Assembly (NCBI RefSeq): GCF_036322585.1
Contig: NZ_AP024600.1
Coordinates: forward strand, 1,302,001 to 1,366,000
Length of the DNA: 64,000 nt
DNA from: Luteolibacter sp. LG18
GTDB lineage: Bacteria; Verrucomicrobiota; Verrucomicrobiia; Verrucomicrobiales; Akkermansiaceae
Reading direction: 5' to 3'
In this document: positions 18,910 to 36,938 of the stretch, in pieces
Numbering within the stretch: position 1 is the first letter of the stretch
Layout of the letters: every line of letters starts with the position of its first letter
The notes under the pieces: generated by a model
Told to the model about the DNA's origin: nothing
The model's database searches: none
What the model saw: only the letters and a program-made list of their open reading frames with translations
Position numbers and translations under genes: made by a program

Positions 18910-18998
18910 CGGTCGCGGCGCATCTCGCGCATGCTTCAGCCTCCTTCGGAAAGGCAGCGGAGCTTCAGCCGCAGAACTTCGGGCGTAGCTCGGTTAGA

Positions 18999-19026: not shown

Positions 19027-19103
19027 AAGCTCATGGCCGGTTTCGATTCAGGGACGCCAGGCCGTGATCGAGGTGAACGGTTTCTCATCGAGATTGCATA
19101 TTT

Positions 19104-19922: not shown

Positions 19923-20163
19923 TTCCCTTCCCTAACACGGAAAGAATCGGTTTTCAGGTCCAAGTTTTAGATCCAGGAGGTGCTTGGCGTCCAAGGACGG
20001 GGGGCTCAGTACCTTGGCCAAAGCAGTGACTAGGCGAGGGATCACCTCCTGAGGTACGACGTCTAATTCTCACCCCTCTCAAAGCCATGGATTTTTGACC
20101 GTCTTGGTTCCTCATCGGGATGATCAAATGACAGCCTCCGACGAAGCGACGGGCCCACGCGGA

Positions 20164-21981
20164 TCACTTTCCGCGCGATTTCCGATGACGCTGCCGACAG
20201 GCCTCGCGGGAGCACTCCTTGCAGCGTGAGCGCTTGGGATCGTAGAAACCGCTCTCCGGCTTGGCTTGGTTGCATCCACGACAGAAACGATGCCCGGCTG
20301 GCAACTCTGCTGCCGATGGATCTCCGGACGGCAGGCGGAAAGGAGGGTCAAGGGCAACGGGAAACGTCGCGGCGAACCCCCAGACCGGATCGTTCGAAGC
20401 CACCAGGGTGGGGGCAAGCCTGAAAGCGCTCACGGAATCCCCCCGCAGGTAGATCTCCGAGAAGAGGCGGGCGATGAAAGCCTTCCTTTCCCTGACCGAG
20501 GCGGAAGCCATCCACTTCCCGCGATCTTCAAGAAGCGACCACGGGCCGCTCTCCTGTTCTACCGCCCTACCGGGATGAGAGGAGCCTCCAATGGATTTCA
20601 GGAGAGTGGCCCGTTCCTCGGCAATGCGTTCGCGCCGTTGCTTTGCTTCACCGATGGCCAGGGCGCCAGCCTCCAGTGCGGCCAATATCCTCTCGTCCCG
20701 CTTGGCCAGTTCGTCGAGCTTGGCCTGAATCGGTTCTCCAACCGATATGGAGACGATCTTTTCACCCTGCTTTGCCCTGGCCTGCCGGAGGACGGACGAT
20801 GTGAATTCCGGATCCGCCAGGAATTTCTCCACGAACTCCGTGAAGAGCTCGTCGATTACCTCCTTGCGATTCCAGGACTGGGCGCAGCGGAAATTGCCGG
20901 GACGGTTGGTCATCGTCTCGTGATGACTGCGGCAGATATAGTAGCCTCTCGATCTGCTGCCATCCGCACGGGTCTTGAGGAGCGTCTTGGCATACATCCT
21001 CAGACCGCAGAACCCACAGTGGGCCACACCGGTTGCCAGATTGCCGACCACTCTCTCCGAAACGAAGACCTCGTGGTTCCGAAGCGTGGATTCCAATATG
21101 CGTTGCACACGTTCCCAGCGTTCGTCCGAAACCGGCTGATCTTCGGCTTCGAAAATCCGCACCCGGATGACCCGCTCTTTGGGCCTTGCGATTTTGGGGC
21201 GGTAACCCTGTCTGCCATGAGCTTTTTCAATCTTGCGGGTCGGATCCGCCATTTTGTCATAAACGCGGACGCCCTTGTAGACCGGGTTGGATAGCAGCGT
21301 GCGAACGCTCGCCGGGTGGATATTGGCGCGACGCCCCACTTCGGCCAGGCTGCGGATTCTGTCTTCGTCCATGAGGCGGAACGCCTCGATGATGCGGCCC
21401 AATTCAGGGGTGAAAATGTATTTGTCCTTCTTGCGATCATAGCCGATGCCCAGTGGCAGCGTAATCCAAGATCCGGGATGCTTCCCGTTCGCGCGGCGCT
21501 TCTCCTTGGATGCCATCATCTTGCGAAGCATCTGCATGCGCTCGTGCCCTCCGAGCAAAGCTTGGATGCCCCCAGCCAGATAGCCTTCAGGAGAGGCGAA
21601 GTCGTGGAGAGTTCCACCACAGTCGAGAATCACGCCGTTGCGTTTGCACGCTTCCAGAAAGCTGAACGTCGAAAGGTCATCCGGCCTGATGATGCGGCTC
21701 ATTTCCGAGGCCACGATCACGTCGATCTCGCGACGCGCGATTCGCTCAAGCAGAGCGATGGTTTCCGGAGCGTGAAGAACAGCGGTTCCTGATACATCCA
21801 CGAGTTCGACCGAATCCACCAATTGGTAGCCCTTTCCTGCGACCACCCGCTCGATGGCCTCGCGCTGCCGATCCAATCCAGCTCTCCCATTTTCCGCCTG
21901 CTCCTTGGTGGAGACCCTTATCCATGAACAAGCGCGAAGGCGGCCTGCCGCAGGGGCTTGAATCTTTGCTTCGTGTGCCAA
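20164..21981 (-). CDS. Large serine recombinase 1 with extra C-terminal Cys4 finger
   Basis: This is a site-specific integrase of the large serine recombinase type. The start chosen is the TTG at 21981, giving 605 residues. That matches the 604-residue paralogue at 27449-29263 and removes a frame extension that overlaps the opposite-strand gene at 22081. The nucleophile region reads IRVSTKEQ near residue 22. The catalytic domain (SEMSRIIRPDDL) is followed by the recombinase domain (VRTLLSNPVYKGVRVYDK), a zinc beta-ribbon (CGFCG...CRSHH...C), a coiled-coil region, and an unusual terminal finger (CRGC...CKEC). A promoter-like TTGACA-17-TGGAAT (22016 to 21988) would place the transcript start at the TTG itself. 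It probably mobilises this element. Confidence 0.85.
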   Translation of the reverse strand: MAHEAKIQAPAAGRLRACSWIRVSTKEQAENGRAGLDRQREAIERVVAGKGYQLVDSVELVDVSGTAVLHAPETIALLERIARREIDVIVASEMSRIIRPDDLSTFSFLEACKRNGVILDCGGTLHDFASPEGYLAGGIQALLGGHERMQMLRKMMASKEKRRANGKHPGSWITLPLGIGYDRKKDKYIFTPELGRIIEAFRLMDEDRIRSLAEVGRRANIHPASVRTLLSNPVYKGVRVYDKMADPTRKIEKAHGRQGYRPKIARPKERVIRVRIFEAEDQPVSDERWERVQRILESTLRNHEVFVSERVVGNLATGVAHCGFCGLRMYAKTLLKTRADGSRSRGYYICRSHHETMTNRPGNFRCAQSWNRKEVIDELFTEFVEKFLADPEFTSSVLRQARAKQGEKIVSISVGEPIQAKLDELAKRDERILAALEAGALAIGEAKQRRERIAEERATLLKSIGGSSHPGRAVEQESGPWSLLEDRGKWMASASVRERKAFIARLFSEIYLRGDSVSAFRLAPTLVASNDPVWGFAATFPVALDPPFRLPSGDPSAAELPAGHRFCRGCNQAKPESGFYDPKRSRCKECSREACRQRHRKSRGK

Positions 21982-21987
21982 ATAGCA

Positions 21988-22028
21988 ATTCCAACACAGG
22001 CGCGAATTTCTGTCAATTTTGCCACTAG
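21988..22028 (-). promoter_or_regulatory. Promoter/operator block 1, before recombinase 1
   Basis: The minus strand reads TTGACA (22016-22011), a 17-bp spacer and TGGAAT (21993-21988). The surrounding ATTTCTGTCAATTTTGCCAC (plus strand, from 22006) recurs with small changes at 32813 and 35690, always upstream of a minus-strand gene of this element. Promoter geometry is seen; control by the XRE protein at 35760 is inferred. Confidence 0.5.
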
Positions 22029-22080
22029 AGGTGCCGTAGGAATCGAATGGGATAATTGCACGCCATGTTTCAATAGGCGC

Positions 22081-22716
22081 ATGACGGAATTCTCTCCCAT
22101 TGACGGTAATGCCACTCCTCGTAATACCCGCGATGCCATCGTTTCGGGGCTCAGCAAGGCGTCCGCCCTTCTGGTGTTGCTGCTGGCGCTCGGGGCATTC
22201 TTCCTGAGCTACGAATCGCTCCGCGATCTTGCGGCCAACAGTGGTGCGGCCGCTCCTAAACAAGCATGGATGTTCCCGTTGGTGATCGATGGCAGCATCA
22301 TGGTATTCTCGTTGTCGGCGCTACGGGCATCGCTTTCGGGAGAACGCTCCCATTGGCATATGGCGCTCGTGATTGTGGTGACGTTGATGTCCGTGGGTCT
22401 GAACGCAGCTCACGCCAATGGCGGATGGCTTGCGCGGACGATGGCCGCGATGCCACCGCTGCTCCTCTTCTTTGCCTTCGAGAGCCTGATGAAGCAGGTG
22501 GCGGCCAATCTCGGAACTGCGACAACCCCGATGCCTCCGATGGCTGTTACCAAGGCGAAGCAAGTTGAGCCCGCCGCGGGGAGTCGACGCGAGAAGGTGA
22601 TCGAGATGCGCGCGAAGGGACTGTCCCGCAATGCCATCGCCCGCCAATTGGGAGTCTCGGCCGCCACGATCCGCCGGGACCTTTCGTTGTCGGGAGAGAT
22701 TGTCCGAGCCGCCTGA
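22081..22716 (+). CDS. DUF2637-like membrane protein with C-terminal helix-turn-helix
   Basis: The protein is 211 residues. The ATG at 22081 is used because the frame upstream overlaps the start region of recombinase 1. Four hydrophobic segments (about 24-42, 58-78, 87-107 and 113-130) contain the pattern WMFPLVIDGSIM, as in DUF2637 proteins, which are best known from actinobacterial conjugative plasmids (SpdB/TraSA-like). Residues about 168-205 form a helix-turn-helix (VIEMRAKGLSRNAIARQLGV...TIRRDL) like that of resolvase C-termini. A membrane-anchored DNA-binding role in transfer or replication of the element is plausible but unproven. It is divergent from recombinase 1 and convergent with the polymerase gene. 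Confidence 0.7.
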   Translation: MTEFSPIDGNATPRNTRDAIVSGLSKASALLVLLLALGAFFLSYESLRDLAANSGAAAPKQAWMFPLVIDGSIMVFSLSALRASLSGERSHWHMALVIVVTLMSVGLNAAHANGGWLARTMAAMPPLLLFFAFESLMKQVAANLGTATTPMPPMAVTKAKQVEPAAGSRREKVIEMRAKGLSRNAIARQLGVSAATIRRDLSLSGEIVRAA

Positions 22717-22737
22717 TCCGCGGGTGGATCAGGCGGC
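22708..22737. terminator. Perfect 12-bp hairpin between convergent genes
   Basis: GCCGCCTGATCC (22708-22719), a 6-nt loop and GGATCAGGCGGC (22726-22737) form a perfect 12-bp stem that includes the stop codon of the DUF2637 gene. It lies between two convergent genes and probably terminates both, though only TATAATT follows. A recombination site is a less likely alternative. Confidence 0.65.
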
Positions 22738-22770
22738 TATAATTGGGCTATACAGAACTTAGACTGATTC

Positions 22771-25308
22771 TCAGCCGTGGTCCGGGTTAGAGTTTTCAAG
22801 CAGCGATGCATGTAACGTGGAGGAATAGCTCCAAGGCGCTTCGGCAACGATCAACGCATCGATTTCAAAGGTCGGAAACGTCTCCTTGATGCGTTCAAGC
22901 CAACGGAGGACATACGGCGTGCGATAGAGGCAGGCAACGGGCTCCTTGGTTCGCTCCCGACCGGCGTTCTCCACATCGTGGGCGGACGTCTCGATACCAA
23001 TCTCTGAAAGAGCTGCTGCCAGCGGGCGGTTGGACATAGTTCCATCGAGCCCCCACATTCGCCGACGGTAAGCCCGCAAGAACAGACGCTTGATGACGGT
23101 CCGGACCGGATCGGGGTCGGCTGGCACCGGATTGTTCCGAGACGGCACAATGCTGAGGTAGGATAGAAAGTCTTCGAGATCGCGCTCGGTTTTGAGGGTG
23201 CGTTCTCCCTGTTTTCTAAAGCGATCCCAGCCCTCCCGAAGAACACGGAAATGCTGCTCCGACACGAGAGGAAGGGTATCGAACCAGAGATGCTCCCCCT
23301 CCAGGATTGGGCGGGTCCCGGACGTCGATGGAGTCCGCTTCCAATCGAAGTCCATCCGATAGCGGATCCACACTTCCTTCAAGCCGAGGTCCAGATCTCC
23401 ACGTGATTCGTAAATCTCCCTCACTCCCCGGAACTGTGTGATTTCGGTTTTGTCGCCGAAATTCCGTTCCAGGAACCGGCGGATGAGATGTTCGTTTTGT
23501 TCCATCACATTCGGAAGCGGGCAGCGAATGCCGCCTTTGGCCAAGATCACGTTTGCCGAGGGCTTATCTGGATTGTCTCCGTATTCGAGGGTTGCCTGGC
23601 CACGGGTGGCCCAGACCAAGGCCTCCTTTACCTGGTGCTTCAGCGTGAGGATGGGAGGCGGTTCGGTGCCGGGGTCGGCATCCGCAGCATGCCGCAGGAC
23701 GTTTCCAAGCCAACCGTTCGCGGCATCGAAGAGTTCCTCGTCACTGGCGTTGGTCAGAAAGCCGTCCGTCGTGGCACTCAAGACGGACCGGTGGGGCGGA
23801 ATCCGGTTCAGGATCTCAATCAAGGTCGCGCGGATCATACCGGTGATCGCTCCTGCCAAGTGAGCGTTCGATAAATCAGAAGGCGGGATGGGTCGCATTT
23901 CGGCATAGCGGGTGTTGAACACCCGCTTCTTCTGGAGCCCTTGGGATAGCTTCCCGTAGATGGAATTGCCGATCAGTTTGAAGATGAGATCTTCAAGGGT
24001 GTCTTTCTTCCTCTCTGATTCCAGGGCCGCGCGTTTGTTCTTGATGACGGTGGCCAGATCCCGGAACGGCCGCTTCTCGAACGTCATCGGAATGACGTAG
24101 GAGAGGTCATCCACGATCCGCATCCGGGCACCCAGACGCAGTGCCAGGTGGATTTCAGGTGCTGTTGCATACCCGCGGCCTTGGAGGGGGAAGATCAGGT
24201 TGTCGAGGGCTCGCACCGGGATGCACGGAAACCGCGTGCTTTCCGGGAACGAGAACTCCACCAGTGCCGCACCGAGCACGTCCGGAGTGAAATCCTCAAC
24301 GGAAGAGGCCCGTCGCAGATCGTTCCATTGGGGAACTCCCAGCGCCGACATCGCAGAGAGGTAGGCGGAACTCAAATCCCAGTCCTTCCACTCGCCGAAG
24401 CCGCTTGGTCCAAAGTGGGAAGCCACAGCAAATCCTCCATGGAAGGACTCCGTTGCAATGGATTCGGAATGGAAGCGCTTGGGGTGGGAAACCCACTGGG
24501 AATTCTTCCCGGATTTGTCCTCCACCACCCCCAGCAACGAGAGGACGTCGGTTCCGCTTCCCACCCAGTGGCTGAGCGCGAAGGTTTCCGCAACGGACGA
24601 CAGGGTTTTGGGTACCGTTACGATGTCGACGATTGCTCCGAGTACTTCCCTCAGCTTCACAACGTATTCCACGGCGATCTTGGCGTCACGGAGCGCATAC
24701 TCGCGGAAACGCTCTGGATGCTGCTCGCTGAACAGGCGGGTGTTCTCAAGCTCTTCGGTCGAGATCTCAAACTTCGGGATGCCAAGAAGCTCGCCGATGG
24801 CCGAAAGGGCCCGCTTGCCTTCGGGAGCCAGAAGCAGGGTGTCGTAGAGATTGATCGCGATTTCGCGCTTGTTGCGACCTGAGTCGTAGTATTCCAGCTT
24901 GCAGGCATCCTCGAAGGTGACGAACCCCTTTCGGTGGGAGTCGAACTGGTGTTGGAAGTCCTTGAGGTCGTCCAGGGCCGTCAGGTCGGCCAACGACCAG
25001 TGAATGGCGAGATTCATCGCGGTGGGCCATTTCTTGAACGCCCCCTGCTTCTTTCCTTCAGTCAGGATCGCTGCGATGATTTCCCGAAATTTCATTCGCT
25101 CGCCCTTGGGCATCATGGCGATGAACTCCCAGCGGGCGGTTCCGTAAATGGCGTATGCTGTGTAACATACGATATCATTTTTGGCCTGCTTGAAATCGTC
25201 ACGACGGGAGGAATGTTCCGTGACGGGGGCCTGGACGTATTCGGAGTCGAGACCGACGTATAGGATGGGTGTCTTCATCAGCGGAAAGAATCCACCGCCC
25301 CATTTCAC
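22771..25308 (-). CDS. Family-B DNA polymerase of the protein-primed/plasmid/pipolin-like branch
   Basis: The protein is 845 residues. A proofreading exonuclease is indicated by ExoI (GLDSEY, D21/E23), an ExoII-like region (HWSLADL, D108) and ExoIII (YALRD, Y204/D208). SFHGGF (about 288-293) resembles the YxGG linker motif of protein-primed polymerases. The polymerase motifs are A (DLSSAYLSAM, D311), B (KLIGNSIYG, about 444-452) and C (ATTDGF, D515). The size agrees with bacterial mobile-element PolBs such as those of pipolins. Such an enzyme replicates the element that encodes it; whether it needs a protein primer or can prime itself cannot be told from the motifs. An ATG at 25278 is an alternative start. 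It lies 12 bases after the AT-hook protein gene, apparently in one operon. Confidence 0.85.
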   Translation of the reverse strand: MKWGGGFFPLMKTPILYVGLDSEYVQAPVTEHSSRRDDFKQAKNDIVCYTAYAIYGTARWEFIAMMPKGERMKFREIIAAILTEGKKQGAFKKWPTAMNLAIHWSLADLTALDDLKDFQHQFDSHRKGFVTFEDACKLEYYDSGRNKREIAINLYDTLLLAPEGKRALSAIGELLGIPKFEISTEELENTRLFSEQHPERFREYALRDAKIAVEYVVKLREVLGAIVDIVTVPKTLSSVAETFALSHWVGSGTDVLSLLGVVEDKSGKNSQWVSHPKRFHSESIATESFHGGFAVASHFGPSGFGEWKDWDLSSAYLSAMSALGVPQWNDLRRASSVEDFTPDVLGAALVEFSFPESTRFPCIPVRALDNLIFPLQGRGYATAPEIHLALRLGARMRIVDDLSYVIPMTFEKRPFRDLATVIKNKRAALESERKKDTLEDLIFKLIGNSIYGKLSQGLQKKRVFNTRYAEMRPIPPSDLSNAHLAGAITGMIRATLIEILNRIPPHRSVLSATTDGFLTNASDEELFDAANGWLGNVLRHAADADPGTEPPPILTLKHQVKEALVWATRGQATLEYGDNPDKPSANVILAKGGIRCPLPNVMEQNEHLIRRFLERNFGDKTEITQFRGVREIYESRGDLDLGLKEVWIRYRMDFDWKRTPSTSGTRPILEGEHLWFDTLPLVSEQHFRVLREGWDRFRKQGERTLKTERDLEDFLSYLSIVPSRNNPVPADPDPVRTVIKRLFLRAYRRRMWGLDGTMSNRPLAAALSEIGIETSAHDVENAGRERTKEPVACLYRTPYVLRWLERIKETFPTFEIDALIVAEAPWSYSSTLHASLLENSNPDHG

Positions 25309-25320
25309 TCAGCGACTGAA

Positions 25321-26559
25321 CTAAGTAGCACGCTCATCGAACCAGACGAAAGGGCCATCCTTCGTCTCGTTTTCAAAGAGTCGGCCGACGGGACCGCCTT
25401 GCGCGAAGATGCAGGAAACGATTTGTTCGAAGACTCGTGCGTTTGAGGTCGTTTGAATCTGGAGCGCTTTCTTTGTGCGCTTCAGATATTTGGTCGCAGA
25501 GGGATTCAACAACCGTTCGAAGTTCTTCACGCTTGAGGGAGGGCAGAGAACGATCCCGTAAGGATCTGGACCATTGTGAAAAGAGGCCCGTGACCACAAT
25601 TCCTCCACAAGTTTCTCAGGGCTTTTCGGCCAGGTCCGGAAGGTGATTTTCTTTTGCTGGGCCAAATCAGGAGCGGGAACCACCAGGAAGTGGTTCGAGA
25701 TGAGAGGTGCTTCGATCTGCCAGAACCCTTCGGTCCACCCGAGCGTGCGTGCAAGCAGCAGGGCTTTTAGCCCATCCCCCCAGCTCACGCCGGACACCCT
25801 CCAAACGAGTCTCGCGGTTTCGGGCAGGAATGGCTTCGTCCATGGGAGGACGGAAGCGCTACCCACCTCTTCTTTCGGCGAGACATCGCGATTATGATAA
25901 ACGACACATGGTAGTGCGCCTTCCAAGAAGGATCTAAGCTTGGGACGATGATCCCGGTCTCCAGGGCGGATGAGGTATTTGCGATTCTGAAGAAACTCAA
26001 GGAGGCCCGACTCGCCGAGTTCCCTTCGAGCGTCAGGACCGAGGCCAAAGTCCGATTTCGTGACGAGCGAGGGCCCAGATTCTGAGCGAAGAAACTTGGA
26101 ATGGATTTGGACGCCGGTTTCCTGATTCGCTGGTAGTCCTGTCTTCCGTGGGCGGCCGGGCTTTCTGCGTTCCATCCAGTTGCCATCGCAGATTTGCGCC
26201 CAGGCCCGCTGAACGCTCGATTTCGAGGTGGCATACCCCATGGCTTCCAACTGCGAGACCATTTCGCGGAGGTGGGGGTAAGACGCGGATGCTTTCGCCT
26301 GGGAACGGAATGTCTTGTTCAAGATGGCTCTCAGCTCGCTCGGCGTGACCTGCTTGAACTCTGCATTAGCTGGCGGGCGTCCAGGTCTTCGCCATTGCTC
26401 CTTCGGGAACATCTTCCGGATGTAGCGGATGGCGGATGAGTCGGAAACGACCACCCCATTCGCGGCGAGCGAGGCGAGGAATTCGGGGATGGAAGGAACG
26501 CTCCCGTCGGGCGGAAGGAAGCGCCCAAACCGTTCGCGCAGTTGCTCGGAGGTGATCAT
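25321..26559 (-). CDS. DNA-binding protein with tandem helix-turn-helix and AT-hook-like motifs, unknown function
   Basis: The ATG at 26559 (MITSEQLRERFG) gives 412 residues; an upstream start at 26631 is possible but less protein-like. The N-terminal 150 residues hold two similar units, each a putative helix-turn-helix followed by an AT-hook-like Gly-Arg-Pro core (RRPGRPP near residue 60, RKPGRPRK near 135). The rest has no family I recognise. It is directly upstream of the DNA polymerase gene on the same strand, so a role as replication initiator, origin-binding protein or terminal protein is worth testing. None of these is shown by the sequence. Confidence 0.6.
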   Translation of the reverse strand: MITSEQLRERFGRFLPPDGSVPSIPEFLASLAANGVVVSDSSAIRYIRKMFPKEQWRRPGRPPANAEFKQVTPSELRAILNKTFRSQAKASASYPHLREMVSQLEAMGYATSKSSVQRAWAQICDGNWMERRKPGRPRKTGLPANQETGVQIHSKFLRSESGPSLVTKSDFGLGPDARRELGESGLLEFLQNRKYLIRPGDRDHRPKLRSFLEGALPCVVYHNRDVSPKEEVGSASVLPWTKPFLPETARLVWRVSGVSWGDGLKALLLARTLGWTEGFWQIEAPLISNHFLVVPAPDLAQQKKITFRTWPKSPEKLVEELWSRASFHNGPDPYGIVLCPPSSVKNFERLLNPSATKYLKRTKKALQIQTTSNARVFEQIVSCIFAQGGPVGRLFENETKDGPFVWFDERAT

Positions 26560-26667
26560 TGGGAGCGGTCCATGGTGACTGCATGGCCGATGAAGGCAAT
26601 CCCGGGCTGACAGTTTGGGACAATATTCCAACTACGTGAAATGGGAATTCCGACGAATCGGTCATAA

Positions 26668-26685
26668 CCATCTAAAATAAGATGG
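26668..26685. promoter_or_regulatory. Inverted repeat in the divergent promoter region
   Basis: CCATCT-AAAATA-AGATGG is a perfect 6-bp dyad with an AT-rich centre. It lies between the divergent start codons at 26559 (minus) and 26744 (plus). It could be an operator for either gene. Confidence 0.35.
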
Positions 26686-26712
26686 ATTAGGCGGTTTTTT
26701 AGACCCGCTGAA

Positions 26713-26734
26713 GGAGCCCCTCGGTGGGGGCTCC
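26713..26734 (+). terminator. GC-rich hairpin just before the 26744 gene
   Basis: GGAGCCCC (26713-26720), TCGGTG and GGGGCTCC (26727-26734) form a perfect 8-bp stem followed by AAAAGTCTTTT. It lies immediately before the start of the plus-strand gene, so it may be a leader terminator or attenuator rather than a 3' terminator. Confidence 0.45.
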
Positions 26735-26743
26735 AAAAGTCTT

Positions 26744-27442
26744 TTGACGAGGGTGATCAAAGAATCATCCACCCGCCGGGCTCCATCCTTCGAGCAACTT
26801 GTACAGGACCTCAACTCACCCTGCCTCCAAACGAGGGAGGGTCCTAAGGGCTCCGAACTCTACATCAAATTCAACCTCCCCACGAATGCAGGGCTGAAAA
26901 GAGGACCCATTGGAGGCCTCGCATTGTGTCTTCGCGTCGTATTGGAATGGATTGCCGAAGCCGCAATTCTGAATGGGCATTGCCCGAACGGAGCGGTTGG
27001 TCAGTTGGCCAGCCTGTCGGTGGAGTCTATTTCCGATCTCCGTAACCGCTATCCGGATGGCCATCCGCTCGGGGCATTATTGTTGAACTACCAGTCGCGC
27101 CTCGATCTGGCCCGTTTGGCCGACAAGAAGTTCCTTCCTTTGCTGCATGAGATCCTCGCCACCTTCTTTCCGCGCCATTATGCGGACGAGGCGTTCAAAC
27201 AAAGAGCCAAGGTGGCGGTCCGCCGTGCCGTGAAGTTTGCGATTAGCGTTCACAACGCCCGTGAGCAGGGGGAATCGGTGATTTGGAATTCCTGGCAGCG
27301 GGTGAGCACGAAGGGCGAGTTCGATCACTTGCTGGCGAAGGGCACACTTCCCTCCCTCAAGCTTGCCGCCAAGGAGGTGAAAGCGACAAAGAAGGCCCCT
27401 GCGTTCCGCAAGGCGGCCGATTCGTTCACCCGCAACCTCTAA
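26744..27442 (+). CDS. Hypothetical protein of the integrative element
   Basis: The protein is 232 residues from a TTG at 26744; an in-frame GTG at 26753 directly after GAGG is an equally good start. It is mixed alpha/beta and basic towards the C-terminus (KLAAKEVKATKKAPAFRKAAD). No recognised domain is seen. The next gene, recombinase 2, begins 6 bases after its stop, so the two are almost certainly co-transcribed. A role as directionality or accessory factor for that recombinase is possible but rests on position only. Confidence 0.6.
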   Translation: MTRVIKESSTRRAPSFEQLVQDLNSPCLQTREGPKGSELYIKFNLPTNAGLKRGPIGGLALCLRVVLEWIAEAAILNGHCPNGAVGQLASLSVESISDLRNRYPDGHPLGALLLNYQSRLDLARLADKKFLPLLHEILATFFPRHYADEAFKQRAKVAVRRAVKFAISVHNAREQGESVIWNSWQRVSTKGEFDHLLAKGTLPSLKLAAKEVKATKKAPAFRKAADSFTRNL

Positions 27443-27448
27443 GCCGCC

Positions 27449-29263: not shown

Positions 29264-29346
29264 TTCATTTGAGAGGTTCCGGCGCGGGGTGCATTCATGC
29301 GCGATCCCCGCGGATCGTTGACGGGGCCATTCCATCCAACAAGACC

Positions 29347-29799
29347 ATGAGTCCAAGTAGTCCATTTGAATCCTTCGAGCGTCGTCTGGGTATTGAGTTT
29401 CGAGACCAGCTCCACCCGGAGGTCACCATCGCCCAGTGCCAGCGCGTGATTTCCTGGCTGGAAAGAACCATGCGCGAGGGAGAGCCCGTTTCTCTCGACT
29501 TCGTGTTGAGCAGCCAGCCTTTCCTGAACCGGATCGGCAGCAGGAGGAAAATCCGGAAGTTCCTCCGCAAGCTCATCTTCGGGCATTACGGTGAGCGGGA
29601 GCCGCTGTACTTCATCCTCTGGACATCCACAGAGGCGGTTTCCCAGTTCATGATCAAGCAGTCGGCTTACCGCAACCTTCCCGAGGCCCGAAAGAACACC
29701 ATCGCGAAACGATGGCAGGCCGTTCTGGAGGACATGATGCAGGCGGCCTCGGACCGCGCTCACCCAGTTGGGAGCGCCTGGGGGCCGATGAGTAATTGA
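29347..29799 (+). CDS. Hypothetical protein downstream of recombinase 2
   Basis: The ATG at 29347 (MSPSSPFESFERRLG) gives 150 residues; the longer frame back to 29191 overlaps recombinase 2 and is not protein-like. It is rich in basic residues (SRRKIRKFLRKLIFG) and appears alpha-helical. No family is recognised. Its place within the plus-strand run after recombinase 2 suggests an accessory function of the element. Confidence 0.55.
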   Translation: MSPSSPFESFERRLGIEFRDQLHPEVTIAQCQRVISWLERTMREGEPVSLDFVLSSQPFLNRIGSRRKIRKFLRKLIFGHYGEREPLYFILWTSTEAVSQFMIKQSAYRNLPEARKNTIAKRWQAVLEDMMQAASDRAHPVGSAWGPMSN

Positions 29800-29828
29800 T
29801 GCTTTGGGTCACTTCGGGACAACGCGAT

Positions 29829-29866
29829 CCCGCATTCTTGACAAGCCAACTTGACGGGAATGCGGG
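29829..29866. repeat. Inverted repeat upstream of the small serine recombinase
   Basis: CCCGCATTC (29829-29837) and GAATGCGGG (29858-29866) are perfect 9-bp arms around a 20-nt loop, itself containing two TTGAC units. It lies between the stop at 29799 and the small serine recombinase start at 29970. It may be a terminator or part of a resolution (res-like) site. Confidence 0.45.
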
Positions 29867-29969
29867 GTCGGTTGTGCCGCCAGGGCCTCAAATCCCGTTA
29901 ATGAATGAACGCCCATCTGTATGAAAATCAGGGAATTGTGTGGATTCAGGCGGCGTGATTTCCTGAAGC

Positions 29970-30638
29970 ATGGATGATCAGCAGAAATGGGTCGCTTATT
30001 TTCGGGTAAGTACTCAGCGTCAGGGGGTTAGCGGTCTTGGCTTATCGGCGCAACATCATGCGGTTACCGCCTTCTTAGCGGGACGCGGAGAAGTGATCGC
30101 CGAGTTCGTGGAGACGGAATCAGGGCGAAAGGTAAAGCGGCCGAAGCTGGACGAGGCGCTGGACCTCTGCCGCCGGAAGAGGGCGGTCCTCGTGATCGCG
30201 AAGCTGGATCGCTTGGCCCGAAATGTTCACTTCATCAGTGGCCTATTGGAGAGCGGGGTGAATTTCTTGGCGGTTGACCAGCCGACGAAGGACCGCTTCA
30301 TGCTCCACATCCAGGCTGCCTTCGCAGAGGAGGAATGCCGCCGGATCTCCGAGAGGACCAAGGCGGCGCTCCAGGCAGCGAAGCGGCGGGGTGTCGACAT
30401 CGGGGCGGCAGGCAGGTTGTTGGCGAAGAAGAACCGCGAGGCAGCCGTCTCCACTGCTCAGAGGTATCGAGAGCTGGTGGAGGAGATCCGAGCCCATGGT
30501 GTGACGACCGTGAAGGGTATCCGCGATGAATTGAATCTCCGCGAGGTGCTCTCTCCTGGTGGCGGACGCTGGCACCTTCCTAATGTCCACAAACTGCTGA
30601 AGCGCCTCGCATTGGCCGGGTCCAAAGCACTTGCGTGA
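29970..30638 (+). CDS. Small serine recombinase (resolvase/invertase family)
   Basis: The protein is 222 residues. The N-terminal catalytic domain shows AYFRVSTQRQ with the nucleophilic serine, VETESGRKVKRPKLDEAL, VLVIAKLDRLARN and the EEECRRISERTKAAL helix. The C-terminus is a short DNA-binding region (VEEIRAHGVTTVKGIRDELN). The length is typical of resolvases and of the recombinases found on plasmids. It may resolve multimers or invert a segment. Two sizeable inverted repeats flank it (29829-29866 and 30678-30715), which are candidate target sites. Confidence 0.88.
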   Translation: MDDQQKWVAYFRVSTQRQGVSGLGLSAQHHAVTAFLAGRGEVIAEFVETESGRKVKRPKLDEALDLCRRKRAVLVIAKLDRLARNVHFISGLLESGVNFLAVDQPTKDRFMLHIQAAFAEEECRRISERTKAALQAAKRRGVDIGAAGRLLAKKNREAAVSTAQRYRELVEEIRAHGVTTVKGIRDELNLREVLSPGGGRWHLPNVHKLLKRLALAGSKALA

Positions 30639-30677
30639 GATTCGGGCAACAGTAGATTGGTAAGGTCATGAGCACGG

Positions 30678-30715
30678 ACCTGCCCGGCTTGGAGGTGACT
30701 TCGAGCTGGGCAGGT
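30678..30715. repeat. 12-bp inverted repeat downstream of the small serine recombinase
   Basis: ACCTGCCCGGCT (30678-30689) and AGCTGGGCAGGT (30704-30715) pair over 12 positions with a single G-T wobble and a 14-nt loop. It starts 40 bases after the recombinase stop. It could be a terminator or a recombinase binding site. Confidence 0.45.
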
Positions 30716-30880
30716 GTCGTCATTCCGCGGAGCCCAAATCGGAGCATTCCAGCAAGGTTGCTCCGTGTAACATCGCTCAGTTGTGGGCTTGGAGTTTGTG
30801 GAAACACTCGGGGTTCCGCGGACGCTCCCGCCCATCCTGGAGCGGTTTCAGAAGGCGACAGAGTGGACCGGGACAACGAC

Positions 30881-31387
30881 ATGAAGGACATCATTAACCC
30901 CTACGCCAGCGATGAGGTGGCTATCGGAATCGAGCGAAGCATCAAGCAAGGGAGATCGCTCGTGATCTCGGAAATCTTCCTGCACCAGCACCGGCTCATT
31001 CACCACACGGGCAAGATCTACCTGACCTCCAAGGACGTTCTGGATGCCCTACACGAACTGGGCATCCAGTATTGGGGCCGGGGGCGCAAGCTGACCAAGC
31101 CGAACGCGATCGGTGACGTTCTCGGAAAGCACGGGATGAATCTTCCGCACTTGATGATCGAGGGGAAGAAGCACTACTTCCTCGGAGCCGTGGGGATGTC
31201 GGAGAGCCAGCGTGAGGCATTCGACAAGGCTCCCGATGAGGAAAAGGCGAAGATGGTCGACCAAGCCATCGAATACGCAAACTCGCTCATCCGTGCCTTC
31301 GAACAGGCAGCCCTCGACGACGAGGAGGATGAGGTCGACTCGGAGAAGGTCGACTCGGTCGAAGTGCAGCCTGAAACGGCGGCTTGA
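30881..31387 (+). CDS. Hypothetical acidic-tailed protein
   Basis: The ATG at 30881 (MKDIINPYASDEVAIG) gives 168 residues; the frame is open upstream to 30668 but that part is Ser/Pro/Gly-rich and unlikely to be translated. The C-terminus is strongly acidic (DDEEDEVDSEKVDSVE). No domain is recognised. A good intrinsic terminator follows at 31404-31440, which supports it being a real, terminal gene of its transcript. Confidence 0.6.
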   Translation: MKDIINPYASDEVAIGIERSIKQGRSLVISEIFLHQHRLIHHTGKIYLTSKDVLDALHELGIQYWGRGRKLTKPNAIGDVLGKHGMNLPHLMIEGKKHYFLGAVGMSESQREAFDKAPDEEKAKMVDQAIEYANSLIRAFEQAALDDEEDEVDSEKVDSVEVQPETAA

Positions 31388-31403
31388 TCATTCCGGTTGA
31401 GGC

Positions 31404-31440
31404 ATCGGCACCGTGACGCACCCGGTGCCGATCTTTATTT
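31404..31440 (+). terminator. Intrinsic terminator after the 30881-31387 gene
   Basis: ATCGGCACCG (31404-31413) and CGGTGCCGAT (31423-31432) form a perfect 10-bp stem with a 9-nt loop, followed directly by CTTTATTT. Confidence 0.85.
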
Positions 31441-31918
31441 AAGGAGGATACGCAGTCCGCCTACTGAGGCCCCGCGGCGGCGGTTCCCGGCTGCTGCTCC
31501 GGTGGACCTACGCCTCCGCAGCCGACCACCGCTCCAGGGGCTTGGAGTGGAGACGGACGGACGAGCGCCGGGGAGGTATCTCCGAGGTCATGAAAGGTTT
31601 TGGAAGGGCTCAGACCGCGGAGAAGCGGTGGAAGCGTCTCGAAGGCCATTTCCCGATTCAGGAGAATGGGCGAGAGGAAGCTTTTAGAAAGGGCTCTTCC
31701 CTTTCCGACCTCAGGGAAGAAAGGAGAGGACAGATCTTGTTGCACCGAACGCCGTAGGCTTCGGGTATTGGTATACCATAGGCAGGTCTTCGACGGCGGG
31801 CGCTCCGGAGACCGGCTCCTAGGCGTTCCACGGTTCTCAGGTGGCCGTGGAACATACGAAAGTACCTCAGTCTTCGTAGAATGGGGCGCTCTGGGGGAGA
31901 TCCAGCAGTCCGCCGGAT
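31441..31918. other. Gene-poor stretch with an inverted-repeat element
   Basis: Nearly 480 bases with no convincing coding sequence. The only clear structure is the palindrome and inverted repeat at 31767-31853, which has a related copy at 32165-32240 on the other side of the small gene at 31919. Confidence 0.45.
31767..31853. repeat. Palindrome plus inverted-repeat element, copy 1
   Basis: TATTGGTATACCA (31767-31779) contains the core GGTATACC. At 31820 TAGGCGTTCCACGG begins, and GTTCCACGG (31825-31833) pairs with CCGTGGAAC (31845-31853). The same two components recur in reverse order at 32165-32240. A binding or crossover site for one of the serine recombinases, or an origin element, is possible. 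Confidence 0.45.
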
Positions 31919-32110
31919 ATGGAGTGGAAACCCGCGCCCAACATGTTCAGCGAGTGGGGCAAGGTCCCGAAGGACCGCACCGACTACGTGCTTACCGTGA
32001 GACCGATCATGATCCATGGAGCGAACGACTCAGTGATCGCGGAGACGGAGTTTCCGGAATCCACGGCTGCCCGCTTGGTTCAGCTCAGGGCGACATTGGA
32101 CAAAGAATGA
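31919..32110 (+). CDS. Small hypothetical protein between two inverted-repeat elements
   Basis: The 63-residue frame (MEWKPAPNMFSEWGKV...) has protein-like composition with alternating charge (TDYVLTVRPIMIHGANDSVIAETEFPESTAARLVQL). A purine-rich GGGGGAGA lies about 20 bases upstream. No homology is recognised. Copies of the same palindrome/inverted-repeat element lie on both sides. Moderate to low confidence that it is expressed. Confidence 0.4.
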   Translation: MEWKPAPNMFSEWGKVPKDRTDYVLTVRPIMIHGANDSVIAETEFPESTAARLVQLRATLDKE

Positions 32111-32424
32111 ACGGTGATCGTCGCTCCTACGAAAGAGACCGGGCTTTCGTAGGTCGAGGGAGCCGTGGAAGACCGTGGAACTCCTGAACTTTAGGCGTTC
32201 CACGCTTCTCCGTCTGGACCCTGCTATTGGTATACCAAAGGGACCCTCCCGACGGAGGTTTCTGAAAGAGCAGCCACGTTCTCAGCGCCCTTCGGGTCCC
32301 CTGCATTTCCTTCAATCGTAACGATTTCCTTCTCGCCTCGCTCCCCTTCGCCGCTGTCCTCACCCTCCCCGGGGCACCCAGGTGCAAGGAAGATACCTTT
32401 CCGGGGCTCTACGATACCTGTCGT
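32111..32424. other. Gene-poor stretch carrying inverted-repeat copy 2
   Basis: About 310 bases without a supported gene between the small gene ending at 32110 and the end of the DUF2958 gene at 32425. The element at 32165-32240 is the only evident feature. Confidence 0.4.
32165..32240. repeat. Palindrome plus inverted-repeat element, copy 2
   Basis: CCGTGGAAC (32173-32181) pairs with GTTCCACG (32197-32204) inside TAGGCGTTCCACG (from 32192), and the palindrome TTGGTATACCAA lies at 32227-32238 within TATTGGTATACCAAAG. The parts match 31767-31853 but in opposite overall order, making the two elements an imperfect inverted pair about 330 bp apart. Confidence 0.45.
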
Positions 32425-32781
32425 TCACGCCACCACCCGTCCCAGGTCGGCAGCCTCCTCCGCATACTCCCGGAGAGTCTTGGAGGCAACGAAGTGAAGG
32501 TCGCGCTCCACCGGCAGCCCGAGCCCGTCCCTCACCGCGGCCAGCTCCTCCAACGACACCCATCCCACTTCCGGGAAACCCAGTCCGAGATCGCACAAGC
32601 CGAAGGCGAGGCAGGATTCTTCGTCCATCTCGGTGAGAAGCCAGGTTGCGTTTCCGCCTGGGGTGAACAGCTTCAGGATAGGACGGAAGTCGGCTTCGTC
32701 CTTCCCGCTGTCAGACAATTCCCGGTTCTCATTGAAGTTTGAAATCAGTTGCTCGCGCAGTTCGTCGGTCAGGAAGTTCAT
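32425..32781 (-). CDS. DUF2958-family protein
   Basis: The ATG at 32781 (MNFLTDELREQL) has a good GGAAGG Shine-Dalgarno 5 bases upstream and gives 118 residues, the usual length for DUF2958. Matching family features are LTDELREQLI, ILKLFTPGGNATWLLTEMDEE, LAFGLCDLG..PEVGWVSLEEL and the LGLPVERDLHF segment. DUF2958 proteins are small, of unknown function, and common on conjugative plasmids and integrative elements. A promoter-like block shared with two other genes of the element precedes it (32794-32833). Confidence 0.8.
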   Translation of the reverse strand: MNFLTDELREQLISNFNENRELSDSGKDEADFRPILKLFTPGGNATWLLTEMDEESCLAFGLCDLGLGFPEVGWVSLEELAAVRDGLGLPVERDLHFVASKTLREYAEEAADLGRVVA

Positions 32782-32793
32782 CGGAACCTTCCA

Positions 32794-32833
32794 CCAGAAA
32801 TCGGAGGGGGTATTTCTGTCAATTTCGACACTG
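32794..32833 (-). promoter_or_regulatory. Promoter/operator block 2, before the DUF2958 gene
   Basis: The minus strand has TTGACA (32822-32817), a 17-bp spacer and a weak TTCTGG (32799-32794). The plus-strand block ATTTCTGTCAATTTCGACAC (from 32812) matches block 1 at 17 of 20 or more positions. Confidence 0.45.
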
Positions 32834-32962
32834 TAGGAGCCCCTCAGCATTGGTCGATCATGGTCGCGTTGAACCTAACTTCCACGATAGCCGGGACCCG
32901 ATCTCTGGAGTGACGGCGATATTTCGACTTGTCCGCCATTTGTCGATCCGGCTTGAAGAGGC

Positions 32963-33364
32963 ATGTCTAATGACAATTGGGTTCCAGACCGTCCCCGTCC
33001 CCGGGGCCCTAGCCGTGGCCAATTCCAAGAAACCATTTCTCTGATCGGGCTCAATCATCGGGTTGATCGCGAAAGGAAGGCTTCGAGAACCGGGAACAAT
33101 GCCACTTGGATATGCTTTTGCGAATCGCCACGGCCTTTGGTGGGGGCGTCGGGTCGTTGGGTGGGGCCTACTAGATACAACTTGGTTCGCTGCCTCGCCT
33201 GTGAGGCAGTCTATTTCGTGGTTCCTTTGGAGAAGAATCGTGGTCGGGCATCTGAAGTAAGAGAGATGCGTGAGCCTATTTTCCGGGTGGTGTGGGACGG
33301 CCCGCGACGCTACATGCCTCCCGTTAAGGATCCTTGTCCAGACGGAGCGAAAGATGAGAATTGA
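32963..33364 (+). CDS. Hypothetical protein with a possible zinc-binding Cys cluster
   Basis: The 133-residue frame starts with ATG at 32963, preceded by GAAGAGGC. A central segment has CFCESPRPLVG...LVRCLACEAVYFVVP, giving a C-x-C and C-x2-C pair compatible with a small zinc ribbon. No family is recognised. The opposite-strand frame over the same stretch is longer but Ser/Arg-rich and unlikely. It belongs by position to the integrative element. Confidence 0.5.
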   Translation: MSNDNWVPDRPRPRGPSRGQFQETISLIGLNHRVDRERKASRTGNNATWICFCESPRPLVGASGRWVGPTRYNLVRCLACEAVYFVVPLEKNRGRASEVREMREPIFRVVWDGPRRYMPPVKDPCPDGAKDEN

Positions 33365-33596
33365 GGGGCAAGGTTGTTGTCTGCTTCGGGGGTGTGGGCT
33401 GGTGCGTAGATATGGACACTTCCGTCGCATTTCCGCCCTCCCTCCGGCGCTGTTGGGCCTGCCCCGCTCCGCGATGGTCGACACCGGCCGCGTAGCCCCG
33501 GCGAAGCAGGTGTCGGGTACCGTCGCCGCGGGGCTCTGGCTGACCCCGTTCGGCACCACGCCGGGAGAGGATGCGAAGGCCGTTGGCGGTGCCCCG

Positions 33597-34172
33597 TCAG
33601 ACGGAAAGAGACAGCATGAAGGACACGATCCACGCCACGAAGTATCCCTTCCCTTGGCGAAGTAGCTCCGAGCGCTTCCACAGGTAGACCGGGATGAAGA
33701 ACGAGGTCGCACCCATCCCCTTCGTCTCATAGCCTGCTTTCCGCAACTCCACCTCGTCCCGGTAACAGAGGCCGACGTTGGCCGCGAAGACGACGAGCCA
33801 AAGGCCGCCGGGGCGTGCAAGCGCCAGTTCGAGGAGCACCGCGGCCAACGGGATGAAGGCGATTACCCACGCCAAGGCATCTGCCCCCTGCTTCGTCGGC
33901 ATGGGTGGCGGGCCGAGTCGGTCAAGTGGAGGCGGTGTCGGAGAAGAGGCCGACAATGGTGGAGGGCCAGTTGGAAGCTCCAACCGTAGCGCGAGATCCT
34001 TGGGCGGAGGAACGACGCCAGGCAGGTCGCCGAGCGGTATCCAATCTGCCAGTTCCTCGTGCCACACCAACGCCTCGTAGAAGGGCACCATCCCGGAGGC
34101 GACCAGGCGGTTCAGCTCATCGAGCGGGAAGGCCCCGAAATCTGTGCCGTCCTTGTGAACGCGAATCTGCAT
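33597..34172 (-). CDS. GYF-like domain membrane protein
   Basis: The protein is 191 residues. Residues 1-52 (IRVHKDGTDFGAFPLDEL..LVASGMV..EALVWHEELADWIPL) match the GYF_2/DUF4339 pattern, a small domain that in bacteria usually precedes membrane segments. A Pro-rich linker follows (about 55-95), then hydrophobic segments (about 98-116, 120-135 and 175-190). GGAG lies just before the ATG. It begins 9 bases after the stop of the zinc-ribbon membrane gene on the same strand, so the two form an operon. Function unknown. Confidence 0.7.
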   Translation of the reverse strand: MQIRVHKDGTDFGAFPLDELNRLVASGMVPFYEALVWHEELADWIPLGDLPGVVPPPKDLALRLELPTGPPPLSASSPTPPPLDRLGPPPMPTKQGADALAWVIAFIPLAAVLLELALARPGGLWLVVFAANVGLCYRDEVELRKAGYETKGMGATSFFIPVYLWKRSELLRQGKGYFVAWIVSFMLSLSV

Positions 34173-34181
34173 GGCTCTCCG

Positions 34182-35663
34182 CTACTGGGCGGATTCCAGC
34201 AATTTCACCAAGGTCTCCAACCGGGCCTTTTCCGCTTTCATCTCCGGGGCCTTGCCTTCGACTTCCTGAACAATCTTCGAAGCCTCCAGACAGCGGTAGT
34301 AGGCAGCGCTTCCCTGAGTCACGGCCTTCGTCTTGTTGGCAGTCTCTCTGTTGATGAGGGCCAGGGCGTCGCTGTAGCGCTTGCGCTCGGATTCCATGCG
34401 GGTTTCCAAGGCTGCCAGTTCGGACTTGGCTGTAGCCAGCCGGACGCGGGCATCACCACCCGGTGTGTTGGAGCCTCCCGGAGCAGCGGGCGTTCGGTCC
34501 ATCGTTCCATCCTTCCCGCCCAGACGGGCTCCCTCGGCGTCCAGCTTCTCGCGGATCTGCTTGGCCTCCTCCTCCCTGGCTTTCAGGTAGGTCGCGGCGT
34601 TCTCTTCTCCCGTTCGAGACTCTTCCTTCGCCGTGGAGGCGCTTCCCTTGTCCGAATGAGTAGCGGACGTATTCTTCGGCTTCTCGTCCTCCACTTCCTT
34701 TTCGGAGCCGGGCCACTTGATCTGGCGCTTCTGGACCACGATCGTGGTTTCCAGGTCCATGTTGGGACGCTCCACCGCTTCGGGGGAGGCGACCTCCTCA
34801 AGCGCCGACAGGGTGTCGTAGATGAACTTCTCGCCCTCCAGCTTGAACACGGTGATGAAATGGCTGCGCACCATCGCTCCGAACCCATTCTGTGAATCGA
34901 CGGAGGTGAAGGTCAGGAAGAAATCTCCACTGTTCTCCACGATCTTGAATCCCGAGAACCGTGCCGTGGAGGGGGACTTCAGGCTTTTCAGCACGATCTG
35001 TTCCGTCGCGTTCTTGGCCAGGGCGAGACGGTTGGAGACGGACTTGCTATCGGTAGTCGTCTCGTTGTTCACCTCCGCCTTCGGACCACCACCTCCTGTT
35101 GCGACAAGGGTGGGACGGATCGCGTTGGTGACCAGGATAAGAGCGACCGTCCCCGCGATGCCAAGGAAGGCGGCGGGAATGAATGACTTCTTCCGGTAGG
35201 CTCCGACCAGATCCTGCTGCATGAGCTTGGACTGCTTCCTGGCCAGAGTCCAATACCAGACGGCGAAGAGAACGATGTAGAGGGGCCACGCCGCCAAGGC
35301 ATCGGCGCTCAAGACAACCGCGATTTGCCACCCAACCATCAGCGCCCCGAAGATCCATGCCCAGGCCTGGGACTTCCGGGCCTCGTCGAGGTAGCCCAGT
35401 GCGAGCCAGTTCTTGCGGTGAGCGATAGGGCCGAGAACCGGGCAGACAAGGAACGCCACCAAGGCCGAGGTTTCAGGGTTCCAAAGGTGCAGGGTAGGCG
35501 GAAGCGATTGGGCTGTCGGGGAGGGGGCTGTGACAAGCGATGGGACGAGCAGTTGATTCTGGCAGGCAGGACACTGCATCGAGAGGCCGCTAAGCTCGGA
35601 AGTCGCGGACAATTGCTGCCCACAGCTCGGACAACCGAAGGAGAAAGAGGGGACGGGCGTCAT
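34182..35663 (-). CDS. Zinc-ribbon, membrane and coiled-coil protein, function unknown
   Basis: The start at 35663 (MTPVPSFSFGCPSCG) gives 493 residues; the upstream ATG at 35684 overlaps the predicted -10 box and is less likely. Residues about 10-40 form a zinc ribbon (CPSCG...CPAC). Four hydrophobic segments lie between about 65 and 180. A soluble domain follows (about 200-320, with LKSPSTARFSGFKIVENSG), then a long charged coiled coil to the C-terminus (KAREEEAKQIREKLDAEGA). The promoter-like TTGACG-17-TTTTAA would start transcription within a few bases of the chosen ATG, implying a leaderless message. The function and partners are unknown beyond the GYF gene downstream. Confidence 0.65.
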   Translation of the reverse strand: MTPVPSFSFGCPSCGQQLSATSELSGLSMQCPACQNQLLVPSLVTAPSPTAQSLPPTLHLWNPETSALVAFLVCPVLGPIAHRKNWLALGYLDEARKSQAWAWIFGALMVGWQIAVVLSADALAAWPLYIVLFAVWYWTLARKQSKLMQQDLVGAYRKKSFIPAAFLGIAGTVALILVTNAIRPTLVATGGGGPKAEVNNETTTDSKSVSNRLALAKNATEQIVLKSLKSPSTARFSGFKIVENSGDFFLTFTSVDSQNGFGAMVRSHFITVFKLEGEKFIYDTLSALEEVASPEAVERPNMDLETTIVVQKRQIKWPGSEKEVEDEKPKNTSATHSDKGSASTAKEESRTGEENAATYLKAREEEAKQIREKLDAEGARLGGKDGTMDRTPAAPGGSNTPGGDARVRLATAKSELAALETRMESERKRYSDALALINRETANKTKAVTQGSAAYYRCLEASKIVQEVEGKAPEMKAEKARLETLVKLLESAQ

Positions 35664-35671
35664 AGGCCCGG

Positions 35672-35710
35672 TTAAAACACGCATCGGGTATTTCCGTCAA
35701 TTGCGCACTA
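35672..35710 (-). promoter_or_regulatory. Promoter/operator block 3, divergent from the XRE gene
   Basis: The minus strand has TTGACG (35700-35695), a 17-bp spacer and TTTTAA (35677-35672). The plus-strand block ATTTCCGTCAATTGCGCACT (from 35690) resembles blocks 1 and 2. It lies between the minus gene starting at 35663 and the XRE regulator starting at 35760, as expected for an operator of that regulator. Confidence 0.55.
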
Positions 35711-35759
35711 CCGTTGGTTAGGTGTTCTGATTCCCGCGGCTGGATAGCCTGTCCGTTTG

Positions 35760-36014
35760 ATGGAAGGGGAAACGGTCAAGAAACTCTTGGATAGACTCAA
35801 GGCGTTGCGATTGGCTCGCGGGTTGACTCAGGAGCAATTTGCCGAATCCTCGGGGATCTCATACAAATATTATCAAGCAGTTGAAGCTGGTCGGAAGCGT
35901 GACCTTCGTCTCTCTACCCTTGAGCGCTTTGCCGAGGCTCATGGGATCGAAATCTGGCAGCTATTTCATCCGACTGTACCCAAGGTGATTCGGCCCTCCG
36001 GGCCACGTCAGTAG
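35760..36014 (+). CDS. XRE-family helix-turn-helix regulator
   Basis: The ATG at 35760 gives 84 residues. It is a single Cro/C1-type helix-turn-helix: LKALRLARGLTQEQFAESSGISYKYYQAVEAGRK..LRLSTLERFAEAHGIE. The length is normal for small mobile-element repressors. It is divergent from the zinc-ribbon/coiled-coil gene, and the shared promoter block between them recurs before recombinase 1 and the DUF2958 gene, making it the likely master repressor of the element. Binding is inferred. Confidence 0.85.
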   Translation: MEGETVKKLLDRLKALRLARGLTQEQFAESSGISYKYYQAVEAGRKRDLRLSTLERFAEAHGIEIWQLFHPTVPKVIRPSGPRQ

Positions 36015-36069
36015 ATGGCTTTGTCCACGCGGGGCGTGCGGCTCCCGTCCGAGACTCTTGATCGCGGGA

Positions 36070-36762: not shown

Positions 36763-36775
36763 ATCATTCCGTAGA

Positions 36776-36919: not shown

Positions 36920-36938
36920 GCGGCGATGACGGAACCGT

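Follow-up and report, generated by a model that had tools for sequence, protein, structure and literature searches.

A 62,144-bp element carrying a pipolin-type family B DNA polymerase (PolB) extends into the 64,000-bp stretch of the Luteolibacter sp. LG18 genome analyzed here (the window, G000:C1:1302001-1366000; the host genome, G000, is a single contig of 5.80 Mb). It is very probably an integrative element put into a host LOG gene by a large serine recombinase (LSR), through recombination of attachment (att) sites attP and attB at a 2-bp core, and a member of a Verrucomicrobiota family that usually targets comM and forms tandem arrays there. The family backbone is an LSR and a small serine recombinase, mostly together with the polymerase, plus genes for DUF2637 and DUF2958 proteins; the remainder is cargo. 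The PolB locus is part of a real integrated mobile element, as an earlier note on this DNA had proposed, but the boundaries given there (20,164-36,014) enclose only the middle of an element that starts 16 kb left of the window (G000:C1:1285946) and runs to window position 46,089. Sequence comparison establishes where the element ends, that target genes are split, that the inverted arms are conserved, and that units join in tandem, as well as the link between PolB and LSR and the placement of the polymerase. LSRs recombine attP with attB via a 2-bp core, excise only with the help of a directionality factor, and can build tandem arrays by integrating repeatedly.

Both ends are provided by an empty-site comparison of the host TIGR00730/LOG gene, to which an intact LOG copy within the element (19104-19922) pointed. 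Residues 2-203 of one LOG copy are encoded at 1285345-1285950 (+) and residues 201-271 at 1348088-1348300 (+), 62 kb apart, and these are thus a single host gene split by the element. The left junction reads LOG-ATGGGG-ACGGGTTCAGCTTTGGGAGAT... and the right junction ...ATCTCCCAAAGCTGAAACCGT-ATGGGG-LOG, with inverted arms that agree at 27 of 34 positions, a likeness reached by none of 200,000 random pairs. When att matrices are built for each genome without that genome's own sites, the two element ends rank first and second in 104 kb (scores of 38.0 and 26.6, the next site scoring 10.3), and the GC content steps at both ends, from 65.3% and 64.9% in the flanks to 59.8% inside. The arms beside the shared, putative GG core have the layout of an LSR attP/attB junction. 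The element also carries an intact second LOG gene, with 92% and 87% amino acid (aa) identity to the two host parts, which may rescue the split host gene. An 83% inverted repeat (19123-19322/46088-46287), considered as a candidate pair of element ends, in fact pairs this intact copy with the displaced 3' part of the host gene. At a third place in the genome (G000:C1:2793398-2793431), a right-end arm with a GG core stands alone.

The relatives have comM as their target, and their junction arms resemble those of the window element. Seven genomes (G254, G013, G528, G178, G463, G464, and G186) have comM cut at the NPCP codons; the 3' domain is a separate fragment, with the 5' part elsewhere, in the first six, LSR-bearing DNA begins within comM at NPCP in G254, G013, and G528, and the more distant G186 is cut at the same codons, where its LSR gene begins, with an arm resembling that of G528. 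Nine genomes carry the LSR, and comM is split in 7 of the 8 that can be judged; G468 (61% complete) is not judgeable, and comM is whole in G000. It is also intact in G128, which has PolB and no LSR; G128 and G000 are the LSR-less or nonsplit cases in which comM was read, and they give no rate. Behind the whole comM of G000, within G000:C1:2865705-2869425, come an arm resembling an att site (2866961, score 19.2) and a displaced 3' fragment of comM that is itself interrupted. This points to an earlier insertion in comM, from which about 1.2 kb seems to remain.

Both comM junctions share CC in G463 and G178 and TCC in G464; the GG core at LOG is the same core as the CC at comM, on the opposite strand. 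Junctions of attL/attR type, read from target-gene halves and inverted arms around a 2-bp core, are clearest in G000, G178, G463, and G464 and weaker in G254 and G013. The inverted arm pairs of the relatives match at 24 (G463), 22 (G464 and G254), 20 (G528), and 19 (G013) of 34 positions, the last being reached by 0.05% of random pairs. In G464, the ends are the top two sites of 69 kb and enclose one 64.9-kb unit, which has LSR without PolB. G178 contains three tandem units, of 106.7, 58.2, and 43.7 kb; PolB and LSR are both present in the second and again in the third. The unit ends (444636, 551296/551299, 609510/609513, and 653238) are the six best sites of G178 in 226 kb and include two full attP-like tandem junctions, whose cores are 551297-8 and 609511-2. 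In G254 there are probably two units, of 34.6 kb with PolB and LSR and then of 45.1 kb; the inner junction (4035125) was placed not by the matrix but by likeness to the arms of G254 itself, at 24 and 25 of 34 positions on one side and 19 of 34 on the other. An arm-like site in G013 (828111, score 17.4) lacks a preceding CC and was for that reason left out of the ends. Of 254 family genomes, 18 contain a 22-base arm pattern (one mismatch allowed), with 32 sites in total; the reversed control gives 3, and 17 of these sites lie outside G000, G178, G463, and G464. A 111-aa gene at which flank similarity begins in four loci of genus g3 was considered as a target and set aside, since it looks like a mobile-type helix-turn-helix (HTH) gene rather than a split target.

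The PolB/LSR module is unlikely to be a small element of its own, carried as cargo by an unrelated island with ends of other origin. The module does lie centrally among genes that resemble ordinary host metabolism, and the second G178 module is enclosed by a 30-nt inverted pair 10.4 kb apart, but no split gene is seen at that pair, which was rejected as a set of element ends. The matrix scan finds no other att site above 10.3 within the 62 kb, where a diverged site could escape it, and so gives no sign of the unrelated insertions that the earlier note had named as a refuting finding; furthermore, the same type of end recurs in other LSR genomes with junctions read, and the three recombinases of the element are the only PF00239 matches in the 5.8-Mb genome. 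A DDE-type transposon, with the arms as terminal inverted repeats and ATGGGG as a 6-bp target-site duplication, has a poorer claim still. The arms and the 6-bp repeat at LOG have exactly such an appearance, and 0.2 kb in from the left end there is a gene for a DDE transposase (PF01609). However, that gene is part of a short insertion sequence with its own, different ends (AGAGGGTGTAC...), which stops short of the junction and was discarded as its maker; moreover, the comM junctions share CC or TCC rather than 6 bp, the same codons of one gene are struck in seven genomes, and one core is common to the tandem junctions.

The polymerase contains exonuclease and polymerase motifs, as the earlier note had stated (Exo I LDSEY, Exo II, Exo III YALRDA, A DWDLSSAY, B KLIGNSIYG, and C TTDGF). 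It has no Pfam match at an E value of ≤0.01 and no NCBIfam match but matches the PHROG family 'DNA polymerase' (E=1.3e-8), and its AlphaFold model (mean predicted local distance difference test score of 67.6, with residues 551-678 under 50) has phi29 DNA polymerase as its best PDB match (Foldseek E=9e-13, template modeling scores of 0.43/0.60). Relatives are found in mobile elements and plasmids, which runs counter to the other refuting finding named in the earlier note, a polymerase with no mobile relatives. A profile built from six relatives, searched for by way of short peptide patterns and hence nonexhaustively in 84,980 species genomes, found 49 loci, including Escherichia coli, Citrobacter, Aeromonas, Vibrio, Methylobacterium, and three Verrucomicrobiota records, and 37 of 72,556 plasmid records match (30 Pseudosulfitobacter, 5 Fusobacterium, and 2 Staphylococcus). 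Single-sequence searches of viral contigs, phages, and PDB sequences gave nothing useful. A 34-kb contig of a viral collection (L072 and L073; IMGVR_UViG_3300006674_000090) contains three pipolin-type PolB reading frames.

Alignment of these polymerases, with 16 partial pieces and 3 duplicates left out, gave 53 rows (51 nonphage rows plus phi29 and PRD1), of which 37 remained for a tree made by a quick method and rooted on the two phages after removal of near copies and short pieces. The window polymerase falls, apart from phi29 and PRD1, within the pipolin-type group, which includes PolBs of known pipolin hosts, in a clade of seven Verrucomicrobiota PolBs (Shimodaira-Hasegawa-like approximate likelihood ratio test support [SH-aLRT] of 99), although the deep order of the tree is not resolved; the Verrucomicrobiota PolBs of G128 and L041 fall outside the clade. 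Motif C is TTDGF in 50 of the 51 nonphage rows and DTDSI in both phage rows, and an xTRG stretch is present in 43 of the 51. The KTRG stretch, which is important for primer-free initiation, reads ATRG in the window polymerase and RTRG in the other six members of the clade; most relatives have K or R at the first of these positions. By its position in the tree, the polymerase is a branch of the primer-independent PolB (piPolB) group and no separate kind of PolB, and in this respect the earlier proposal of a distinct PolB element type does not hold.

PF00239 matches support all three serine recombinases reported previously, of which two are large and one is small. LSR 1 probably starts near 21,876-21,950, because a longer open reading frame (ORF) with a TTG start overlaps the conserved DUF2637 gene (22081-22716); it has no match among plasmids and phages at E≤1e-20. 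Both LSRs end in a CxxC...FY...CxxC arrangement, like the zinc parts of endonuclease VII (PHROG 1035; E=0.001 for LSR 1 and 0.46 for LSR 2), and similar C-terminal tails are present on the LSRs of relatives.

Among 260 family genomes (LSR cutoff of E≤1e-20), 7 have the LSR and 4 have PolB, and all 4 have both (Fisher p=1.9e-7, uncorrected for kinship). Across 387 genomes sampled from the phylum, 5 have PolB, 5 have the LSR, and 4 have both. All seven PolBs of the clade lie within 2.5 kb of an LSR of the window family. Recombinase profiles made in this analysis were run on 60 PolB loci, 9 of them from Verrucomicrobiota (two from one genome); 7 of these 9 have the window LSR family, and the other two, G128 and L041, have neither LSR nor tyrosine recombinase. 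Tyrosine recombinases are present at none of the 9 Verrucomicrobiota loci, compared with 35 of the 51 others; none is found in the 104 kb around the window element, nor in longer stretches of all the elements, except for one near the G186 LSR. LSR-like genes do occur outside the Verrucomicrobiota, alone at L034, beside a tyrosine recombinase at L044 and L064, and as a partial match at L069, and these cases speak against a clean division between the two recombinase types. The LSR and PolB trees agree where resolved, grouping G013 with L023 and the second G178 element with G463, and the two genes travel together across genera and one other family. The G528 LSR is a partial, weaker match (34%). 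The small recombinase accompanies the LSR in all seven units or loci examined, except the short stretch of L023, and has two frames in one G178 unit. Co-occurrence, agreeing trees, and LSR-type att ends together sustain the earlier idea of a Verrucomicrobiota PolB element tied to serine recombinases. It is scarcely credible that this is a classic pipolin that has lost its tyrosine recombinase and acquired its LSRs by later, unrelated insertions, for although the polymerase is of the pipolin type and the few LSR-like genes outside the phylum (L034, L044, L064, and in part L069) fit such a history, the linkage and tree agreement just described, the LSR-type ends, and the lack of any tRNA found by ARAGORN in the window oppose it.

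Several observations weigh against a PolB element family integrated by its LSRs. The target in the window is LOG, not the comM of the relatives, and the genome has two LSRs, either of which could be the acting one. Both LSR genes are at least 24 kb from the element ends, and phage LSR genes usually adjoin attP. PolB is absent from the G464 element, which has the LSR and small recombinase; no PolB is found within 40 kb of the G186 LSR, from which a tyrosine recombinase is 13 kb distant; and the first, 106.7-kb unit of G178 has neither PolB nor LSR. The ends of G254 do not stand out in the matrix scan, where the right one ties for third and the left falls outside the top six; at the stringency of the 22-base pattern, there are no sites in G254 or G528, and arm-like sites occur in genomes without a detected LSR, such as G307 and G473. 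The comM halves are on separate contigs in G013, G463, and G528, and the G186 split is read from the 5' half. With integration by an LSR still the favored explanation, LSR 1 or LSR 2 would catalyze integration, the element could excise as a circle, PolB would start and copy the element's DNA after excision or on entry, and the small recombinase may resolve multimers. The coordinates of the element and its genes are collected in Table 1.

Table 1. Features of the element and its insertion site (window positions unless a G000:C1 coordinate is given)
Feature	Position	Strand	Basis or remark
Part of the element in the window	1..46089	.	Empty-site comparison of split LOG, matrix scan, GC step
Left terminal attP arm	G000:C1:1285946-1285979		27/34 identical to right arm when inverted
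Right terminal attP arm, 34 nt	46056..46089	-	Junction reading, matrix scan
Putative GG crossover dinucleotide	46090..46091	.	Within ATGGGG common to both junctions; left GG at G000:C1:1285944-1285945
Displaced 3' part of host LOG/TIGR00730	46088..46306	+	5' part ends at G000:C1:1285947
Intact second LOG/TIGR00730 gene within the element	19104..19922	-	NCBIfam TIGR00730, 7.4e-44
Large serine recombinase 1	20164..21876	-	PF00239, PF07508, Zn ribbon; PHROG integrase, 1e-50; start about 21,876-21,950
DUF2637 membrane and HTH protein	22081..22716	+	DUF2637, 1.7e-17; relatives in G178 and G254 elements
Pipolin-type family B DNA polymerase, 835 aa	22771..25278	-	Motifs, structure model, tree
AT-hook-like protein upstream of PolB	25321..26559	-	Motifs in sequence alone
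Protein before LSR 2	26753..27442	+	No family match; unlike the relatives' gene at the same place
Large serine recombinase 2	27590..29263	+	Family and PHROG matches; ORF from 27449
Small serine recombinase, resolvase/invertase type	29970..30638	+	PF00239, 4.4e-29; homologues in other elements
Protein of no named family	30863..31387	+	Relatives in G178 and G013 elements
DUF2958 protein	32425..32850	-	DUF2958, 4.5e-35; relatives in both G178 elements
Protein with relatives in G178 and G254 elements	34182..35459	-	Sequence comparison
XRE-type regulator	35757..36014	+	HTH_3, 8e-13

The DUF2637, DUF2958, and XRE assignments made earlier are borne out by family matches, and the AT-hook assignment is borne out in part: the motifs can be seen in the sequence, but the protein has no family match and no BLAST relative in the loci compared. 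The protein between PolB and LSR in the relatives (A2) was considered as a counterpart of the two window proteins at that place and rejected for want of similarity. A 30-nt direct repeat (22006-22035/32812-32841; 83%) lies by the starts of the LSR 1/DUF2637 and DUF2958 genes, with TGTCAATTTCGACA in one copy; it is unlike the element ends and was discarded as an att site, and it is perhaps an operator, of the XRE regulator. PADLOC returned nothing at E≤0.001 for six window proteins, and no relaxase or type IV secretion genes are among the Pfam-scanned ORFs (three sets of 10 from the window element, in which one gene appears twice, and a set of 10 from that of G254).

The description of the locus as poor in metabolic genes is right for 20,164-36,014, but much metabolic cargo is carried elsewhere in the 62.1 kb. 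Cargo varies between the elements, and in the window element it includes a fucosidase, an alpha-N-acetylglucosaminidase, ion-transport genes, giant repeat proteins, and a DoxX/MNIO/DUF2063 operon. The latter, at 36939-41124, is composed of a sigma-70-like gene, DoxX (PF07681), a small Cys/Gly/Lys-repeat protein (38948-39322), MNIO (PF05114, 2.3e-108), and DUF2063, and is likely a modified-peptide operon, presumably bufferin-like. Positions 1-17400 code for three mutually related, giant repeat-rich proteins of about 1450-2740 aa, which are probably surface proteins. The G254 element has SMODS cyclase and NucC defense genes (L011:2192-3823).

A literature search returned no account of a pipolin-type PolB with serine recombinases or of a piPolB in Verrucomicrobiota, although an earlier description is possible. 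In the pipolin literature, piPolB is the sole gene common to pipolins and its role for them is called unclear (PMC9710591), and integrated pipolins are described with tyrosine recombinases (PMC7385651). Since piPolB alone is common to pipolins (PMC9710591), the window element would be a pipolin in the wide sense, if its polymerase behaves as its sequence suggests. As in the pipolins described there (PMC7385651, PMC9710591), the element is integrated, and its PolB is homologous over nearly the whole length, with TTDGF and xTRG, and stands apart from phi29 and PRD1. Unlike those with tyrosine recombinases and a tRNA gene target, the window family has LSRs, a protein-gene target, and tandem arrays; E. 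coli pipolins typically, though not always, encode a tyrosine recombinase and have att repeats at a tRNA gene, features that were not found here. Its PolBs also differ from those of pipolins in the replaced K of KTRG and in forming a clade of their own.

In its working, the element resembles the staphylococcal cassette chromosome (SCC) with Ccr recombinases and Pol-SSB, as described in PMC10061031, in having one or two LSRs, a conserved housekeeping-gene target, degenerate inverted end repeats, tandem composites, its own DNA polymerase, and varied cargo. It differs from the A-family Pol-SSB pair with helicase reported there (PMC10061031) in its B-family PolB; a helicase was not searched for. 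Insertion is in LOG or comM, unlike the rlmH target of SCC, and the window LSRs score 32.2 and 28.4 bits against CcrB and 26.4 and 20.6 bits against CcrC (cutoffs of 900). A tentative and somewhat doubtful extension is that these are a so far undescribed, SCC-like class of islands in Verrucomicrobiota in which a primer-independent PolB, not a helicase-primase, starts replication of the LSR-excised circle or of incoming single strands, and in which comM insertion and tandem stacking disable a transformation helicase able to help delete islands. The AbaR islands of Acinetobacter are also located in comM and are transposon-based. They share with the present family the use of comM as an insertion hotspot and differ from it in lacking the LSR-type att sites seen here. 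The present family also indicates comM as a hotspot for tandem arrays in Verrucomicrobiota. With the pipolin polymerase group joined to a different integration system with base-exact ends, it becomes possible to test directly whether the element excises, whether the circle replicates, and whether PolB is needed, and the PolB-less G464 element is usable as a natural control. Two known designs, pipolins and SCC, are linked in this family, by which pipolin-type PolBs are shown in Verrucomicrobiota.

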